This document shows positions 6,961-39,515 of a stretch of 39,515 bases of DNA, piece after piece. The notes beneath the pieces are model-generated. The model saw only the letters and a list, made by a program, of their open reading frames with translations, did no database searches and was not told where the DNA came from. Source of the DNA: a virus; IMG/VR virus record IMGVR_UViG_3300027852_000093, positions 1 through 39,515 of that record. The stretch is one strand, 5' to 3'. The translations under genes were made by a program, and so were the position numbers. Numbering within the stretch: the first letter of the stretch is position 1; every line of letters begins with the position of its first letter.

Positions 6961-7217
6961 ATGACCCTGATTTTGACAATCGGATACTTTATCGTTTGGA
7001 GGATATACCGGCAGGACGAAACCCTGTGTGGGATAAGATATTAGACAAGGGCATCCCCGATCTATGGGGCTATCATCGAGTGATGAAGGAGTATGGATGG
7101 ATAGCATGGGAGGATTGGCAATGGATGCCCTTACTGGTGAAAGAGGGCCTGATGCGCTGCATCAATCTGGACAACGAATGGCAGAACAAGAAGCAGGAAG
7201 AGCAACGAGGTAGATAG
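6948..7217 (+). CDS. Tail assembly chaperone, -1 frameshift extension (gpGT-like)
   Basis: This is the -1 frame segment expressed by fusion to the short form. The product would be 120 residues from the first frame plus 89 from here, 209 in all. The segment (SFGLDDPDFDNRILYRLED, then WIAWEDWQWMPLLVKEG) is acidic and aromatic, as in other T domains that touch the tape measure. Its own possible ATG at 6918 lacks a ribosome binding site, which favours frameshift over separate start. The TAG stop overlaps the GTG of the tape measure gene by one base. Confidence 0.75.
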   Translation, partial: SFGLDDPDFDNRILYRLEDIPAGRNPVWDKILDKGIPDLWGYHRVMKEYGWIAWEDWQWMPLLVKEGLMRCINLDNEWQNKKQEEQRGR

Positions 7218-16737: not shown

Positions 16738-16965
16738 TTACTGGTTTTGTCGATCCGCCCGATAACACCCGTCTACCTCATCACGATATCCGCAGTCTTC
16801 CCGTTGGCAATCTTTGCAGTGCCATTTGTACGCAGCAACACAGCCGGTACAATAGTCGCCGCACGGCGCAAGGTCATCAATCCCGCAACCGCATTCCTCA
16901 CTACAAAGCCCATGATACCCATTATCCTTTAGCCACTTACCAACGATCTCCAGTACAGTCATCAT
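16738..16965 (-). CDS. Cys-rich small protein, 75 aa
   Basis: The product starts with a helix (MMTVLEIVGKWLKDNGYHGL) and then has about eleven Cys: CSEECGCGIDDLAPCGDYC, followed by HCKDCQREDCGYR. I recall similar proteins with a CGC-DDL-PC pattern encoded in early regions of many phages. It would bind two zinc ions or a similar metal. GAGGAGG precedes the ATG pair, and the start overlaps the stop of the upstream gene. Function unknown. Confidence 0.7.
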   Translation of the reverse strand: MMTVLEIVGKWLKDNGYHGLCSEECGCGIDDLAPCGDYCTGCVAAYKWHCKDCQREDCGYRDEVDGCYRADRQNQ

Positions 16966-17294
16966 TACCCCTCCTCTTTGGGCGTTGTTCCATCATCGTT
17001 TTCCCAAACAATCCCTTGACGATACGTGTGGCTTCTTGGGGCAACTGTAAAGCCGTACTCTTCCCCTATCTCGTCCCATAAGTCTATGAGTTGTCGGTTG
17101 ATAGGCACAAGCATTTCCTGGCAATGGTTCGTTACCGATTCCATCAACCCTTCGATGCTGCGCCTCCTAGCCATCAAGGCATCCATCCTGTCTCTCAGGT
17201 AAGGAGCAATCTTGATACTGCCATCCTCGTACTCGCGATACCCGCAGGTCTTCCCCATCTTGTGAATTGGGTACACCACTTTCTTCTTAGTCAT
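16965..17294 (-). CDS. Hypothetical early protein, 109 aa
   Basis: TAGGAGG lies four to seven bases before a GTG-ATG pair. I use the ATG at 17294; the GTG at 17297 is also possible. The protein has an N-terminal basic stretch (MTKKKVVYPIHKMGK), then a beta region (YREYEDGSIKIAPYL) and a long helix (DRMDALMARRRSIEGLMES). No named domain is visible. The TAA stop overlaps the start of the next leftward gene. Confidence 0.65.
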   Translation of the reverse strand: MTKKKVVYPIHKMGKTCGYREYEDGSIKIAPYLRDRMDALMARRRSIEGLMESVTNHCQEMLVPINRQLIDLWDEIGEEYGFTVAPRSHTYRQGIVWENDDGTTPKEEG

Positions 17295-17302
17295 CACTCC
17301 TC

Positions 17303-17458
17303 CTATTTACTAGCGGGTTTCATGTTCAAACATACTACGCACCGCCACCCAGGATTGCCGCCATACCCCTTTGGGGCATAGTTGTGGACTCGCATTTGCT
17401 TTCCGTAACGGCCATCTTGCCATTCGTGCCCACACGTACACTGAATTACTTTTGTCAT
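17303..17458 (-). CDS. Small zinc-ribbon protein, 51 aa
   Basis: AAGGAGGC precedes the ATG by a few bases and the frame ends just before the ribosome site of the next gene. The product carries CTCGHEWQDGRYG and, 25 residues later, RCVVCLNMKPASK, a split zinc ribbon. It is the first gene of this leftward stretch after the 341-bp non-coding region. Ribosome site, spacing and zinc motif make it likely real. Function unknown. Confidence 0.65.
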   Translation of the reverse strand: MTKVIQCTCGHEWQDGRYGKQMRVHNYAPKGYGGNPGWRCVVCLNMKPASK

Positions 17459-17799
17459 GCTGCCTCCTTATTATTTGATTGCGCTTCTACTGGGTAGCTG
17501 ACTAGCCAGGTCGCTCACTCCAAGGCTCGCCCGTCGGCGGTTACCACGGTCAACTACTACACCTTGCGGTTACCACAGTCAATTACTGTACCTTGTAGAG
17601 TGCCCTCGCTGTAGCCAGCCTACCCAGGCCCAGACGCGAGGCGTTCCCTCGGCATGAGCCTTGATGGGGCTACCTCATCTCATATCATTACCACCTTCGT
17701 TCTCTCCGTGCCGTACCGCTGTTCAAAATTATAGCTGTGCCATATTGCCCTCCATATACGTGCGTCATCGGCGCTCAGGCGTCTGGGCGGACGCGGTGA
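17459..17799. other. Non-coding region with repeats
   Basis: I find no convincing gene in these 341 bases on either strand. Besides the ribosome site of the 17303 gene it holds a 29-bp tandem repeat (17538-17595) and a 10-bp inverted repeat with arms GCCCAGACGC at 17628-17637 and GCGTCTGGGC at 17779-17788. A TATAAT occurs on the minus strand near 17730, but without a good -35 box. It could be an origin of replication, an operator region for the lower part of the leftward block, or a structured RNA. Confidence 0.55.
17538..17595. repeat. Two tandem 29-bp repeats (iteron-like)
   Basis: Unit 1 is 17538-17566 and unit 2 is 17567-17595, joined without spacer. They agree at 25 of 29 positions, and all four differences are transitions. 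Each unit begins CGGTTACCAC and ends ACCTTG. On the minus strand each holds a TTGACT/TTGACC-like box. Tandem units of this size are typical of iterons or of repeated operator sites. There are no spacers, so this is not a CRISPR array. Confidence 0.7.
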
Positions 17800-18027
17800 T
17801 TATAGGTTCGATACATTCACCATGTCTGGCTGTATCACTAATTGAGTTTTGATCGTTTGGATTGCCCTTCTCTTGGCGTCTGCTCCATCCTTCCCAAGTA
17901 TATTTACCTTATTGTACCCTGACCACTTGGGGTTATAGTCTCTCAGGTATGCCGTAACCTCATAAGGCAGCTTCTGGTTTGAATTTTCACACCTATGGAC
18001 AAAAACCGCCACGATGAATGTTTTCAT
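17800..18027 (-). CDS. Hypothetical early protein, 75 aa
   Basis: ATG has GGAGG nine bases upstream. The protein begins MKTFIVAVFVHRCENSNQKL and reads as a small alpha/beta fold (VTAYLRDYNPKWSGYNKV, then ADAKRRAIQTIK). No metal site or membrane helix is evident; the hydrophobic start is too short for a signal peptide. It lies upstream of the non-coding region in the leftward block. Function unknown. Confidence 0.6.
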   Translation of the reverse strand: MKTFIVAVFVHRCENSNQKLPYEVTAYLRDYNPKWSGYNKVNILGKDGADAKRRAIQTIKTQLVIQPDMVNVSNL

Positions 18028-18098
18028 ATTTATACCTCCAGCCCGATAATAGGGTAATATCCTCGTCGCATAACTGCACTTCTGCGATGCAGCCGCTA

Positions 18099-18527
18099 TT
18101 AAGCCCCGCTTGCATATTTCCGCTCATCTCCTGTATCTTCCCCTATTTGATTTTCAAACCCGTGCTTAATAGCAACCGCTTTGAATAGTGGCAACCCATA
18201 CTGGGCGTAGCGATTGAATGACTCAAGGTCATCATCTAAAACCCACATCCACATCTTCACAACTTCATACATAAATGAAGCAGATATACTTCGTTGATTT
18301 AAGGCTTTCTCGAACCCGAATTCTACATCACGCTTTAATTGCTCCAACACATTCTCTTTAGTCAAATCTATAGCTTTGTGTTCCCCCCCGTCTTTCAACG
18401 AAAAGCCAAACGTCTGCCAATCCTCGACCGGGAAAAATTCAATGATCCTACTAAAATCACGGCCATCCAAACATTGAGACTCCTTTCCGTTCTTTACCGC
18501 TTCCAAGATTCGCTCTCTAGTTTTCAC
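18099..18527 (-). CDS. Hypothetical early protein, 142 aa
   Basis: The start is GTG with AAGGAGG four bases upstream. The protein is mainly helical and acidic (RERILEAVKNGKES, KENVLEQLKRDVEFGFEKAL, MYEVVKMWMWVLDDDLESF). It has no Cys cluster and no membrane segment. I do not recognise a family. It is separated from the next leftward gene by about 70 bases that include a weak five-base-pair stem. Confidence 0.6.
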   Translation of the reverse strand: MKTRERILEAVKNGKESQCLDGRDFSRIIEFFPVEDWQTFGFSLKDGGEHKAIDLTKENVLEQLKRDVEFGFEKALNQRSISASFMYEVVKMWMWVLDDDLESFNRYAQYGLPLFKAVAIKHGFENQIGEDTGDERKYASGA

Positions 18528-25161: not shown

Positions 25162-25380
25162 ATGATGGCACAGTCAGCAAATTGTCTGCGGAGTATGCGG
25201 AAGCAGAAAGGGTTTAGCCAGCAGGGACTGGCAGTTGCAGCAAATGCAGCCCCCAGTTTACTAGTAATGGTGGAGCGATACGACTATCTCCCTGGCCCGG
25301 ACGTTCGTCAGAGATTGGTAAAGGTGTTGAATTGCGCAGAGAGCGAAATATGGAGTGAGCTGGATCAGGTGACAGTCTGA
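25162..25380 (+). CDS. XRE-family HTH regulator, 72 aa
   Basis: AAGGAGG precedes an ATGATG start pair. The fold is that of a Cro/CI-type DNA-binding domain: LRSMRKQKGFSQQGLAVAAN (first two helices), then APSLLVMVERYDYLPGPDVR and a closing helix RQRLVKVLNCAESEIWSEL. It has no C-terminal dimer or cleavage domain, so it is nearer to Cro than to a LexA-like repressor. A likely target is its own promoter or the divergent early promoters. Confidence 0.8.
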   Translation: MMAQSANCLRSMRKQKGFSQQGLAVAANAAPSLLVMVERYDYLPGPDVRQRLVKVLNCAESEIWSELDQVTV

Positions 25381-25395
25381 ATAAGGAGCAAGGTG

Positions 25396-26196
25396 ATGAA
25401 AACAATTGAGGAGTTCTACCGATGGGAGCTTGACTCGCGGGACACAATAGATGTGAAGCGCAGCTACATTGATATGGCTGGGGATTTGGTAGCAGGGGTA
25501 TTGCTGAGTCAGATAGTATTCTGGCATCTCCCCTCGAAGGATGGGGGATCAAAGTTGAAAGTTGAACTTAACGGCTACCTGTGGCTAGTCAAGGCAAAGC
25601 ATGAATGGTGGGATGAGTGTAGGATCAGCCCTAAGCAGTTCGACAGGGCTATAAAGGTGCTGAAAGAGAGAGGTCTAGTGCAAACATCGGTGCATAAATT
25701 TGGGGGGAATCCCACAACCCACATACGAATTGACCCGACTGGATTCCTCCAGGGGGTAGAAAGGAACATTACCAAAGGTACTTTTCCAAACATACCAAAA
25801 GTAATTATCCAACATGACCAAAGGGATGTTTCCTCTTACATAGATTACTCTTCAGAGATTACTGCAGAGAGAGAAGAGGGAGACACAGCACCAGCAAAAA
25901 AAATCAAGCGAACAGTACACATGGACTCAGAGGCATTGGCTAAGTTCAAGGTGGACTACCCTGGAAGCAATGTAGATTTAGAGTGGGCGAAGTGCCAAGA
26001 CAATTGGCTCGCCCGGGGCCTGACAATGAAGGATGAGCTCGCAGCGTTTCGGAACTGGATGCGGAATGCAAAGGAGTTTAACCGTGCGCCAAGTAAACGA
26101 GGCAGTACACGGCAACCTCAAAGGTATACCACGGTCGAAGAGTTTCGCGAACAGCGCAGAACAGGAGGAGGGCTAAGGACCGGGCGCGGATGGTGA
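25396..26196 (+). CDS. Phage replication initiator / replisome organiser-like protein
   Basis: The 266-residue protein starts at the ATG with AAGGAGCAAGG upstream. Residues 25-120 form a winged-helix pattern seen in phage replication proteins: DLVAGVLLSQIVFWHLPSKD, then LVKAKHEWWDECRISPKQFD, then RAIKVLKERGLVQTSVHKF, and THIRID. The middle is hydrophilic (likely linker) and the C-terminal part (FKVDYPGSNVDLEWAKCQDN, then AAFRNWMRNAKEF) resembles helicase-loader tails. It would bind the phage origin and recruit the host replisome. Confidence 0.7.
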   Translation: MKTIEEFYRWELDSRDTIDVKRSYIDMAGDLVAGVLLSQIVFWHLPSKDGGSKLKVELNGYLWLVKAKHEWWDECRISPKQFDRAIKVLKERGLVQTSVHKFGGNPTTHIRIDPTGFLQGVERNITKGTFPNIPKVIIQHDQRDVSSYIDYSSEITAEREEGDTAPAKKIKRTVHMDSEALAKFKVDYPGSNVDLEWAKCQDNWLARGLTMKDELAAFRNWMRNAKEFNRAPSKRGSTRQPQRYTTVEEFREQRRTGGGLRTGRGW

Positions 26197-29537: not shown

Positions 29538-29589
29538 CTGCCGTTTCGCCCTTGACAACCGCCGCATAATGTGATAAGGATATTTGCAT

Positions 29590-30717
29590 ATGAATATAAC
29601 CTGGAGCACTTCGACTCGCACAATTGACGAGCTTGTGCCGTATGAACATAATCCACGCCGGCTCACGGAGAAACAGTATGAAGACCTGAAACGCTCGCTG
29701 GAGAAGTTCGACCTCGCTGAGATACCAGCGATCAACACCGATAATACGATCATCGCAGGGCATCAACGCCTCAAAATACTCCAGACGCTCGGCAGGGGCG
29801 CAGAGACTATTGATGTGCGTATCCCCAGCCGGAAACTCACCAAGAAGGAACTACAGGAATACAACATTCGCAGTAACAAGAATATGGGGGAATGGGACTT
29901 CGAGATGCTAGCGAATGCGTTTGATCAGGATGACCTCGTTGACTGGGGATTCGATGTGGGGGAGTTCGGGATAGAGGAGGAGCCAGACCGTGAGGGCCTT
30001 ACGGATGACGATGAAGTTCCTGAGGTTCAGGAGGAGCCGATTTGCAAGACCGGCGATCTATGGCAGTTAGGAGAACACCGGCTGCTGTGCGGCGATGCTA
30101 CGGTGGTGACGGATGTAGATAGGCTGATGGGGTGCGAGAAGGCTGAGTTATGTTTGGCTGATCCACCTTATGGCGTGGGGTATAAGTACAATGACTACGT
30201 GGACACAAAAGAAAACTTAGATAACATCATCAATGATGCGCTCCCACTCATTAAAGAATATGCGAAACGCGCTCTAATTACGTGCGGGAACAGTAATCAA
30301 AGGAAGTATCCGTCCCCAGATTGGACGTTGTGCTGGTTTGTCCCTGCTGGTGTAGGGCGTGGCCCATGGGGGTTTACGTGTTGGCAACCTGTACTAGCAT
30401 ACGGTGCTGATCCTTATTTAGAGAAAGGGATGGGGTCAAGGCCAGACGGATTTTCAATCACGGAAGGCGCAAGCTCGAAGGAGCATCCTGTAGCAAAACC
30501 AATGTCTGTTTGGCAATGGCTCATGGAGCGGGGGTCAATAACGGAAGGCGATGTTATCTTTGACCCATTCGGCGGCTCTGGCACCACACTGATTGCCTGC
30601 GAAAAGACGGGCCGGAAGTGCCGAATGATGGAGATCGACCCTCACTACTGCGATGTCATTGTGAAGCGGTGGGAAGACTATACAGGTAATAAGGCGGAGT
30701 TGGTGGAGAATGTCTGA
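29590..30717 (+). CDS. ParB-like domain fused to DNA adenine/cytosine-N4 methyltransferase
   Basis: The 375-residue protein starts at the ATG at 29590 with AAGGA upstream. Residues 10-100 are a ParB/sulfiredoxin-type domain (IDELVPYEHNPRRLTEKQ and IIAGHQRLKIL at 55-65). Residues 145-375 are a beta-class amino-methyltransferase: catalytic motif DPPYGVGY at 191-198 comes first, then SAM-binding FDPFGGSGTT at 324-333. The ParB part may bind DNA or nucleotide and guide the enzyme. Such fusions are common just before phage terminase genes. The gene overlaps the small terminase start by eight bases. Confidence 0.85.
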   Translation: MNITWSTSTRTIDELVPYEHNPRRLTEKQYEDLKRSLEKFDLAEIPAINTDNTIIAGHQRLKILQTLGRGAETIDVRIPSRKLTKKELQEYNIRSNKNMGEWDFEMLANAFDQDDLVDWGFDVGEFGIEEEPDREGLTDDDEVPEVQEEPICKTGDLWQLGEHRLLCGDATVVTDVDRLMGCEKAELCLADPPYGVGYKYNDYVDTKENLDNIINDALPLIKEYAKRALITCGNSNQRKYPSPDWTLCWFVPAGVGRGPWGFTCWQPVLAYGADPYLEKGMGSRPDGFSITEGASSKEHPVAKPMSVWQWLMERGSITEGDVIFDPFGGSGTTLIACEKTGRKCRMMEIDPHYCDVIVKRWEDYTGNKAELVENV

Positions 30718-34712: not shown

Positions 34713-34866
34713 ACAAGAGATGGAGTACGATATGTTGTGTTCCTCGAAGGAGAAGGCGCTAATAGAGCGATTGCGAGAAATAGAATCTGGTGATGCTCTC
34801 GTTATAGTGAGGAACCGCGAGCCCGTAAGGATCAAGGAGAAGACAGAGAATATCGAGTTGAGCTAA
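34708..34866 (+). CDS. DUF2292-like small protein
   Basis: The product (52 residues from 34708, or 44 from the ATG at 34732) has LIERLREIESGDALVIVRNR followed by PVRIKEKTENIEL. This is the pattern of the small DUF2292/YezD-like proteins: a helix and a beta hairpin ending in a Glu-Lys-Thr-Glu segment. Function unknown. The gene lies between a candidate promoter and an intrinsic terminator, so it may be an independent unit inside the late region, even a captured one. Confidence 0.6.
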   Translation: MKQEMEYDMLCSSKEKALIERLREIESGDALVIVRNREPVRIKEKTENIELS

Positions 34867-34894
34867 CCGAATAACGCCTGAAGAGTAGGACTCA

Positions 34895-34935
34895 GGGCAG
34901 TTTAGACGATATGTCTAGGCTGCCCTTTTTTATTT
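34895..34935 (+). terminator. Intrinsic terminator inside the head gene cluster
   Basis: GGGCAG (34895-34900) pairs with CTGCCC (34920-34925), with an inner stem AGAC/GTCT, and is followed directly by TTTTTTATTT (34926-34935). It is the clearest rho-independent terminator in the window. An upstream small stem (CCTG 34877-34880 with CAGG 34893-34896) overlaps its first bases, so two structures could compete. Confidence 0.85.
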
Positions 34936-34957
34936 GGGGATATGGAGGCGAGGCAGA

Positions 34958-35905
34958 ATGGCAGAGATGATGAGGAAGGTGCTGTACCCAGAGATTAAGG
35001 ATCTGGGTGATCGCGTTCTTGAGTTTGTAGGGTCCACGGAAGCGCAGGACAGGGACGGGGATATAATCCGAGCTTCTGGGTGGAATCTAAAGGACTTCAA
35101 GAACAACCCTGTCATTATGTGGGCTCATGACTATAGCCAGCCCCCGATTGGGCGGGCCAAGAAGGTATGGGTAGACAACAAACAACTGCGGTTCGAGGTT
35201 GAATTTGCCTCAAAGGAGACCTACGAGTTTGCCGATGTCATCTACAGGCTGGTTAAAGACGGCTATATCAAGGCCACGTCTGTAGGATTCATCCCGCGAC
35301 AGTGGGACGAGCTGACCAGTAAGGAGGGCGACCCCGATTTCGGGTGGAATCCGCTGGTCTACAAACGGCAGGATTTACTAGAGCTGTCAATTGTCCCAGT
35401 CCCCAGCAATCCGGAGGCGCTGAGAAACGCTTGGAGCAGCGGCGTTATCACTGCCAAGGAATTCAAGGCTATTACCAAGTCTGAGGGGGCAGAGGATATT
35501 ATCCAACCAACTGTACCAGACAAGTGTACGTCACAAGCAGAGATCCGAGACGAACTAGACTATGTGAAGTCCTTGATCATTGAGGGCAACCTAAACGAAG
35601 AGAACGGGGATATCACGTGGGACATAGTACGAGAGCGCATAACGGGGGGCGACATCCCCGAGGATATATTACTGAAGGTCGGAGCGGTGCTTTCGAGCAA
35701 GAACAAATCTGATCTCGGGAAGGCGCGAGAGTTGATCCAGAATGTACTGGATAGCTCCGAGCCACAGCAACCAACGCAGGAGCCGGAGAAAGAAGCGGAA
35801 GAGGTCGAGACTAAAGCTCCGGTTGTGTTGGGTGCGACTGAGCTAGCGGGGATGGTGCGTCAGGCATATCAGGGGGCGCGGGACTATCAGCTAGGCAAAG
35901 TGTAA
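34958..35905 (+). CDS. HK97-family prohead protease, with C-terminal extension
   Basis: I chose the ATG at 34958, behind GGAGGCGAGG, over an upstream in-frame start at 34934 that lies in the terminator region. Residues 1-165 hold the protease: MWAHDYSQPPIGRA (His57), IKATSVGF (Ser108) and LLELSIVPVPSNPEA (Glu132), the His-Ser and acidic pattern of this family. It cuts the capsid N-terminal domain during maturation. Residues 200-315 are helical and acidic (EPEKEAEEVETKAP) and may serve as scaffold. Confidence 0.85.
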   Translation: MAEMMRKVLYPEIKDLGDRVLEFVGSTEAQDRDGDIIRASGWNLKDFKNNPVIMWAHDYSQPPIGRAKKVWVDNKQLRFEVEFASKETYEFADVIYRLVKDGYIKATSVGFIPRQWDELTSKEGDPDFGWNPLVYKRQDLLELSIVPVPSNPEALRNAWSSGVITAKEFKAITKSEGAEDIIQPTVPDKCTSQAEIRDELDYVKSLIIEGNLNEENGDITWDIVRERITGGDIPEDILLKVGAVLSSKNKSDLGKARELIQNVLDSSEPQQPTQEPEKEAEEVETKAPVVLGATELAGMVRQAYQGARDYQLGKV

Positions 35906-37163: not shown

Positions 37164-37640
37164 ATGCCAGGACTTTTGATGGATGAACTGAATTTCTACA
37201 ACGGCAATAACCTGACGGCGCACGAGGATATATTCAACGGCGATCCGGCATCCGATGTGGTCAATATGGCCAACTACGGATCGTGCATGTTTATTATCGT
37301 GAAGAGCGCAGGGGCGGCGGGCACAGCGACAATCACCTGCGAGGCTTGTGATGACGTAACCCCCACCAACTCAGAGGCCGTAGCCTTCACGTACAAGGTC
37401 TGCACGAGCGGCAACACGTGGGGAGCTACTACGGAGGTGGCGTCAACAGGCTTCACGACTACGGCAGGCGCTAACCAGTGCTACGTGTGCGAGGTGCAAG
37501 CGGACGGGCTGTACGGCACATATGGTTTTGTACGCTGGGTTTGCACAGAGGTAGCGGATGGCGGATGTGATGGTGCGATGGTCATAGCCATGGGCAATCC
37601 ACGCTACGCCCAGGACGTACAGGTGGACGTAACGAGCTAA
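37164..37640 (+). CDS. Capsid decoration-like protein
   Basis: The 158-residue product directly follows the major capsid gene. It starts MPGLLMDELNFYNGNNLTAH and has a beta domain (TATITCEACDDVTPTNSEAV, then VASTGFTTTAGANQCYVCEV) that I recognise from proteins after capsid genes in many environmental phages. Six Cys residues are present. A role on the head surface is inferred from position and fold pattern. Confidence 0.6.
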   Translation: MPGLLMDELNFYNGNNLTAHEDIFNGDPASDVVNMANYGSCMFIIVKSAGAAGTATITCEACDDVTPTNSEAVAFTYKVCTSGNTWGATTEVASTGFTTTAGANQCYVCEVQADGLYGTYGFVRWVCTEVADGGCDGAMVIAMGNPRYAQDVQVDVTS

Positions 37641-37645
37641 AGTGG

Positions 37646-37759
37646 ATGCAACTAGCTAAGGATAAACTCAAGAGGATTGGGCAGAGGGCTAAGGCTCCTG
37701 CCCAACCTCGCAAACATAAGATGGTGACAGAACCAAAAGGGAGGAAGTCGAATGAGTGA
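37646..37759 (+). CDS. Possible small basic protein, 37 aa
   Basis: This frame fills the gap between two structural genes and its TGA overlaps the next start by eight bases. The product is very basic (MQLAKDKLKRIGQRAKAPAQ, ending KGRKSNE). There is no clear ribosome site, but the stop of the upstream gene is only five bases away, so reinitiation is possible. It may bind nucleic acid or only couple translation. Confidence 0.4.
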   Translation: MQLAKDKLKRIGQRAKAPAQPRKHKMVTEPKGRKSNE

Positions 37760-38672
37760 AGTACCGCGAGGACGTATGTTCTCGAAGTGGAACTCCGGCA
37801 ACCTGGTCATGTATCCAGGTGATTGCCCGGGAGATGTTTACTTCGTGGATGGGACCAATGGCGCGAGCACGAATTCCGGCGAGAGCTGGGAGCAAGCGTT
37901 AGATACTATAGATGGCGCTGTGAATAAATGCACAGCCAACAATGGGGATGTGATTGCAGTCGCGCCGTACCACACCGAGAACCTGGCAGCGGACAGTGCC
38001 ATAGATGTGGATTTGGCGGGCGTGGCTATTGTTGGCATCAGGCGGGGCCGATTAATGCCAACACTGACCGCCACGGCAGCGGCGGGTGATCTGAAGCTAG
38101 CAGCAGCCAATACTAGCATCAGCAATATCCGGTTCCTTGGTGGCATTGATGCGGTGAGCGGATGTGTAGAGGTGAGTGGAGCTGACTGCGCGATCTTGAA
38201 CTGTGAATATCGGGATGTCACAGGACAGGCTACCGACGCAATCATCACTACAAATGCAGCGGAAAGGCTCTTGATAGATGGGTATAAGCACATCGGTGCA
38301 GCGGCTGCTGGCGCGAATAGCGCCATTGCGATAGTGGGCGCGGTGGATTCAGTAGAGGTCAGGAACTTCTGGATATACGGCAACTTTGCCGTGGGCGCTA
38401 TAGATTTCCGCACGACAGCATCAACATGCGCCTGGATTCACTCAGGTACTATATGGACCGAGAACGCTGCTGATGTCGCAATCGTAGACACTGTAACTGC
38501 CTCTACGGGGATCATAGGGCCTGACATCAATATCATGGTGAAGGACAACGCGGCCAACATTACGGAAGCTGTCACTGGAGCAACCTTCGTGGTGATGGAC
38601 CCCGTGTATGTCTGCAATCTGGTGAACGAGAAAGCGCTGCTGATTAACTGGACGGCCAGCGTGGACGAATAG
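37752..38672 (+). CDS. Beta-helix-like head-associated structural protein
   Basis: The 306-residue protein has the start FVDGTNGASTNSGESWEQAL, then CTANNGDVIAVAPYHTENLA, which are the first turns of a pectate-lyase-like beta-helix. Later turns read LAAANTSISNIRFLGGIDAV and CAILNCEYRDVTGQATDAII. The C-terminal 60 residues look like a cap (NLVNEKALLINWTASVDE). I recall similar proteins beside capsid genes in lake and marine phages; head fibre or spike roles are likely. No catalytic residues can be named. Confidence 0.7.
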   Translation: MSEVPRGRMFSKWNSGNLVMYPGDCPGDVYFVDGTNGASTNSGESWEQALDTIDGAVNKCTANNGDVIAVAPYHTENLAADSAIDVDLAGVAIVGIRRGRLMPTLTATAAAGDLKLAAANTSISNIRFLGGIDAVSGCVEVSGADCAILNCEYRDVTGQATDAIITTNAAERLLIDGYKHIGAAAAGANSAIAIVGAVDSVEVRNFWIYGNFAVGAIDFRTTASTCAWIHSGTIWTENAADVAIVDTVTASTGIIGPDINIMVKDNAANITEAVTGATFVVMDPVYVCNLVNEKALLINWTASVDE

Positions 38673-39208: not shown

Positions 39209-39487
39209 ATGACACGGGAAGATCTGATACGCAAAGCAACACGTACCAAACTCTGGGCGGCGGTGGGCGGCGGCGGATCGGGGCTCGCGGTAATCAATGA
39301 GGGTGTCGATCTTGTGGCAACCAGCGAGGCAGCGGGGATACTAACGATCCTTGGCGGCGTGATACTCACAGCAGCCAGTGTGGTTGGCTACCTCGTGATT
39401 GAGGGGAACATCGACAAGGCGAGGGAGTCAGTCAAGGCCCTTGTAGTAGGCAGGGTGATGGAAGACGAGGAGCCGGAGGGCGACTAG
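39209..39487 (+). CDS. Holin-like small membrane protein, 92 aa
   Basis: The ATG at 39209 has AAGGAGG four to five bases upstream. Two hydrophobic segments lie at about 16-32 (LWAAVGGGGSGLAVINEG) and 40-61 (AAGILTILGGVILTAASVVG), followed by a helix and an acidic end. Size and layout fit a class of small holin-like phage proteins, although it lies in the head-to-tail junction and not beside the lysin candidate. Its 3' part is repeated at the left end of the window. Confidence 0.6.
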   Translation: MTREDLIRKATRTKLWAAVGGGGSGLAVINEGVDLVATSEAAGILTILGGVILTAASVVGYLVIEGNIDKARESVKALVVGRVMEDEEPEGD

Positions 39488-39515
39488 TGGCGCGGAATGC
39501 TAAGTACAGCTTTAA
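39366..39515. repeat. Direct terminal repeat, right copy
   Basis: Same sequence as 1-150 except for one base (T at 39389, C at 24). The base change turns a Tyr codon of the holin-like protein into His in the left copy. The overlap allows the contig to be closed into a circle of about 39,365 bp. Confidence 0.95.

Follow-up and report, generated by a model that had tools for sequence, protein, structure and literature searches.

A repeat-bearing non-coding spacer in the leftward gene block of a metagenomic phage: a candidate structured leader or small RNA

Phage operons have structured 5' leaders and small intergenic RNAs, which make up a general class rather than one family. GOLLD and ROOL are large, ornate structured RNAs of bacteria, some of which are phage-borne. 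The lambdoid origin of replication has its iterons within the O gene. Type III antitoxins are recognized by a Rho-independent terminator after the repeats and by a pseudoknot in each repeat unit that binds the toxin; an adjacent ToxN-like endoribonuclease is a further type III trait, dispensable for a mimic. Part of the account in PMC5086642 gives ToxI-type repeat units a length of about 34-36 nt, a section of PMC3475682 describes the pseudo-ToxI of phage PhiTE as short tandem repeats between genes, and a portion of PMC12373285 concerns an AbiF non-coding RNA.

The window, i.e. the whole stretch of DNA that was analysed, is a virus record of 39,515 bases, the first and last 150 of which (1-150 and 39366-39515) align without gaps and with one mismatch; therefore, the genome may be complete. 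The ORF map places a spacer of 341 nt (17459-17799, minus strand) between the minus-strand ORFs 17800-18027 and 17303-17458, the latter a cysteine-containing ORF of 51 aa, without a family match, that lies directly downstream. Both flanking ORFs share their leftward direction with the block running from RecT to RusA; in the leftward block lie genes for an SbcC-like ATPase, a RecT-like annealing protein, a metallo-hydrolase and a RusA-like resolvase, along with small ORFs, several of which have no family. For SbcC, a scan of genome contigs yielded one relative at 35% identity, which leaves the host unsettled. An earlier note on this DNA had described the 341 bases as free of genes, and both the ORF map and the codon scores agree that they look non-coding: the six whole frames of the spacer score from -0.134 to -0.352, all of them lower than ten small ORFs of the phage scored in frame (-0.029 to 0.107). 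A few 90-nt sub-windows score -0.02 to 0.03, near the range of the small ORFs. A hidden or decayed gene was rejected on the basis of the whole-frame scores and of the stops that break the frames. In a coarse ORF tiling of the window, the longest uncovered stretch has the spacer as its core and measures 418 nt rather than 341 because the tiling dropped the 51-aa ORF; the next-longest uncovered stretches are 230, 229 and 214 nt. The same tiling leaves 17 uncovered stretches of at least 80 nt, some of them tiling artefacts, and the earlier description of a genome with almost no gaps is too strong. The G+C content of the spacer is 0.563, versus 0.521 for the window.

Within the spacer are two 29-bp tandem repeats (17537-17565 and 17566-17594, strand not assigned), established by a repeat search, TRF and shuffles. 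The copies adjoin each other and are identical at 25 of 29 positions; all four differences are transitions, as had been remarked before, which would be unremarkable given an old duplication. With a TRF score of 90, the array stands at the top of the 20 rows for the window and far beyond chance, the arrays of 100 dinucleotide-shuffled windows scoring 63 at most. The window holds no further copy of the 29-bp unit at three mismatches or fewer, and the folds of the two units are neither alike nor unusually good. Each copy carries GCGGTTACCAC, for which matches at up to two mismatches number 15 in the window against 7.8 expected, 13 of the 15 having two mismatches and being scattered.

Read leftward, the spacer can form a long helix, P2, with its 5' arm at 17591-17627 and its 3' arm at 17490-17525 (minus strand), which encloses nearly all of both 29-nt repeats. 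P2 was defined by folding with programs that do not predict pseudoknots and by scoring of helices against shuffles. When G-U pairs are allowed, the best helix on the leftward strand scores 64, a value attained in 5 of 500 shuffles of that strand, whereas the best helix on the opposite strand scores 46, attained in 353 of 500; restricting the pairs to Watson-Crick gives a best score of 42, which 7 of 500 shuffles attain on either strand. The domain 17485-17632 (148 nt), picked, like the helix scoring, after the fold had been seen, folds leftward at -65.2 kcal/mol (z -3.45) and as its complement at -52.5 kcal/mol (z -2.58); genome-wide, z is -3.4 or lower in 14 of 1314 windows of 148 nt. The bases of P2 are mostly paired (mean 0.77-0.80) across three assumed transcripts. 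The pairing potential of P2 and its asymmetry between the strands are present in the sequence, as are the spacer and the repeats. Over the full length of the spacer, shuffle-corrected folding does not separate the strands, with z of -2.41 leftward and -2.50 on the opposite strand, about equal, and of -2.69 and -1.88, respectively, in a second run; the lower leftward energy is partly a matter of composition. The full-length spacer ranks 10th of 230 window-strands, nine of which fold at lower z; by the standard of this genome, its folding signal is no more than moderate. Three windows near the capsid genes (34850-35190, 35532-35872 and 37578-37918) fold more strongly than their shuffles on both strands; no inverted repeats of at least 10 nt within 120 nt were listed in any of the three.

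The widely spaced 10-bp inverted repeat singled out in the earlier note is real, yet weak. Its arms, GCCCAGACGC at 17628-17637 and GCGTCTGGGC at 17779-17788, match exactly with 141 nt between them, and an exact 10-bp inverted repeat is present in 78 of 2000 shuffles of the 341 bases; a repeat search with a 12-nt minimum did not list it. On the minus strand, 17779-17788 would be the 5' arm of a second helix, P1, and 17628-17637 its 3' arm, directly adjoining P2. The pairing of P1 varies with the assumed ends of the transcript, its probability being 0.97 for a transcript of 17799-17430, 0.09 for 17793-17430 and 0.18 for 17828-17400, and the part at 17626-17793 folded alone is ordinary (z -1.07).

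Putative signals of expression lie at both ends of the spacer. On the minus strand at 17799-17828 is a promoter-like site, CAGACA-18-TATAAT (10 of 12 positions, by consensus match only), the second hexamer of which ends at 17799, the upstream edge of the spacer. The 901 bases of 17200-18100 contain five promoter-like sites, versus 1.1 expected, lying on both strands around the repeats, and no terminator-like sites. At the other end, a Shine-Dalgarno-like AGGAGGC (17462-17468, minus strand) precedes ORF 17303-17458 and falls outside P2. The full-length fold has it paired with the 5' edge of the spacer; whether this pairing is strong or partial varies with the assumed transcript, so that the Shine-Dalgarno sequence may be masked. 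A four-codon mini-ORF after GGAGGG (17729-17743), spotted by eye, may be due to chance.

One interpretation of the spacer, as a leader or small RNA, takes in gene direction, the promoter-like site and the strand asymmetry of P2 at once, and is the most economical for that reason. Hence we favour, tentatively and with somewhat less than even confidence, a role for the spacer as a structured 5' leader, or alternatively a small RNA, belonging to the small genes clustered downstream. Among the functions offered in the earlier note, non-coding RNA is the best supported, by a strand-asymmetric helix and a promoter-like site at the edge; an operator, also offered there, is less probable but a real alternative. 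In the proposed mechanism, the spacer would be transcribed leftward, either by read-through from a promoter-like site near 23.3 kb or from 17828-17799, and the transcript would serve the cluster of small genes that begins at 17458, as a structured 5' leader or as a small RNA. P2, enclosing nearly all of the two 29-nt repeats, would be the core of this RNA; in some predicted forms the 10-bp inverted repeat would add P1 beside P2, and in some the Shine-Dalgarno sequence of the next gene would pair with the 5' edge of the spacer, so that a switch between forms could mask or free the Shine-Dalgarno sequence. Such an RNA would most likely modulate or protect the expression of downstream genes, and the 29-nt repeats would be modules recognized by a partner, either protein or RNA. 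Transcription of the spacer, folding of its RNA in the cell and any regulatory role are what we infer. Two real rivals of the leader interpretation are a DNA operator and a neutral spacer; an origin or partition site and a decoy RNA are unlikely.

As a DNA operator, the 29-bp repeats with GCGGTTACCAC would be bound by a regulator of the phage, for instance the HTH protein encoded at 25162-25380, and so control an internal promoter. The strength of the direct repeats, the promoter-like sites on both strands near them and the HTH-type ORF itself, which has weak matches far under curated cut-offs, are all compatible with this explanation, but GCGGTTACCAC has no exact third occurrence in the window and its near-matches are mostly two mismatches away and scattered, the promoter-like site at the edge is some 205 bp upstream of the repeats, and P2 is left unexplained. 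We consider an operator rather unlikely, though a real rival.

Comparison with related phages, which the earlier note had proposed as a check, yielded no relative of the spacer in phages, plasmids or viral contigs and one near-identical record without the spacer. The collections searched comprised 50,697 phage records and 72,556 plasmid records. A pattern scan of viral contigs returned 10 contigs, about the chance level by judgement; among the 39 loci compared, alignments to the spacer extended over only 19-20 nt and involved three of these 10 contigs. Pairs of GTGGTAACC occur in 35 viral contigs, without clear similarity past the pattern. Most of these 35 contigs with GTGGTAACC-N20-GTGGTAACC (L047-L078 and L081) have a common GGTAACC array, and in six of the ten such loci read, a nearby ORF is ParB-like by eye or small and HTH-like; the array is possibly a terminase or ParB-like binding site. 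A single-sequence covariance model, which reaches close relatives only, recovered from 35 loci the window itself and one chance-level match (E 8.4), and from 18 records nothing; very near records may be absent from the searches, so that these negatives do not demonstrate that the spacer lacks conservation. With Rfam release 15, the window has no match at gathering score; when E up to 10 is allowed, 17200-18100 gives a lone sub-threshold match, on the opposite strand and with 16.1 bits versus a cut-off of 50. Candidate assignments to a known RNA family or tRNA were discarded, none having been found in the searches of the spacer.

No viral-contig relatives were found for the proteins of 18099-18527, 16965-17297, 17303-17458 and 17800-18027; among phage records, 18099-18527 has relatives in 69, mostly enterobacterial phages, and a weak match to the 51-aa ORF (44%, E 2e-3) turns up in 11 records of Pseudomonas phages. 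RecT was located at 29 viral loci. In a coarse ORF tiling of 12 loci, nine have gaps of more than 150 nt behind RecT (or the hydrolase); no clear positional equivalent of the spacer was seen among them, and the single-sequence model gave nothing credible there. The near-identical record (L012/L041) has the RecT and terminase genes in common with the window and lacks the spacer. At its position 7030 (about 19490 of the window), L012 departs from the window within the hydrolase gene and then runs into another SbcC-like stretch, with 66.7% identity to residues 211-273; this departure is either an assembly chimera or a strain variant.

The failure to find relatives in the phage and plasmid collections or with the covariance model is what would be expected of a neutral spacer, a gene remnant or loose module junction with an old 29-bp duplication, some chance pairing and no function. 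Folding that is only in the top few per cent genome-wide and adjacent small ORFs that are mostly orphans point the same way, whereas a P2 that, with G-U pairs, is matched by so few shuffles, and on the strand of the genes, argues against neutrality, as do the promoter-like site at the edge of the spacer and whole-frame codon scores that bear no trace of a gene. Our assessment is that neutrality is rather doubtful, although more probable than an operator.

The remaining DNA-level functions suggested in the earlier note, a replication origin or a partition site, are very improbable. The tandem repeats within the longest gap, in a genome encoding proteins with initiator-like and ParB-like matches, would suit either function, but three tandem 23-bp iteron-like repeats (84% mean column identity; TRF score 72 over 25765-25824) are located elsewhere, at 25766-25834, inside an initiator-like gene. 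The putative initiator ORF, 25393-26196, matches DnaD-like and O-like families, and the DNA at 25760-25860 is A+T-rich (GC 0.337), whereas the G+C content of the spacer is above that of the window. The GC-skew check that had been recommended shows no change at 17.5 kb; the sign flips only near 14 kb and 23 kb, the same places at which gene direction changes. Since the iteron-like repeats sit in the initiator-like gene and the skew is constant at the spacer, an origin within the spacer is unlikely. The iteron-origin pattern, with tandem iterons carried by the initiator gene next to A+T-rich DNA, is found at 25766-25834 and not in the spacer, and the repeats at 25766-25834 are likely the real origin. 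As for partition, the ParB-like matches come from a single ORF, 29584-30717, just upstream of the terminase and 12 kb away, that matches ParB-like and DNA methyltransferase families alike, and no ParA-like match was obtained among the ORFs scanned, a subset of the genes. With the origin better placed in the initiator-like gene, the spacer is left as a candidate leader or small RNA: an orphan non-coding stretch of a metagenomic phage, and a modest finding.

Least probable is a new structured phage RNA that acts in trans as a decoy, in which repeated units in the head of a long helix would titrate a host RNA-binding toxin or defence protein in the manner of the pseudo-ToxI of PhiTE, while being unrelated to it in sequence. 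Intergenic, phage-borne tandem repeats as described for PhiTE in part of PMC3475682 are the precedent for such a decoy. Against it, the spacer has two units of 29 nt in place of an array of units of 34-36 nt, the length given in part of PMC5086642, and has neither an Rfam match at gathering score nor a terminator in 17200-18100. No ToxN-like endoribonuclease was detected among ten nearby ORFs with PADLOC-DB, or among ten ORFs, eight of them nearby, with NCBIfam.

In comparison with known systems, the spacer differs from GOLLD and ROOL in its length of 341 nt and in belonging to no Rfam family at gathering score. It resembles the lambdoid origin in that a phage genome bears tandem direct repeats, but here the iteron-like repeats are in the initiator-like gene at 25766-25834 rather than in the spacer. 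It resembles the pseudo-ToxI of PhiTE, as part of PMC3475682 presents it, in having short tandem repeats between phage genes, but its units are 29 nt rather than the 36 nt of ToxI-like units, its leftward strand matches no Rfam model, and its repeats sit inside a larger helix. Compared with phage leaders and small RNAs, the spacer is set apart by having no Rfam match at gathering score and no relative in the collections searched; like them, it occupies a gap in a block of genes running in one direction, has pairing potential on the coding strand and carries a Shine-Dalgarno sequence at its end.
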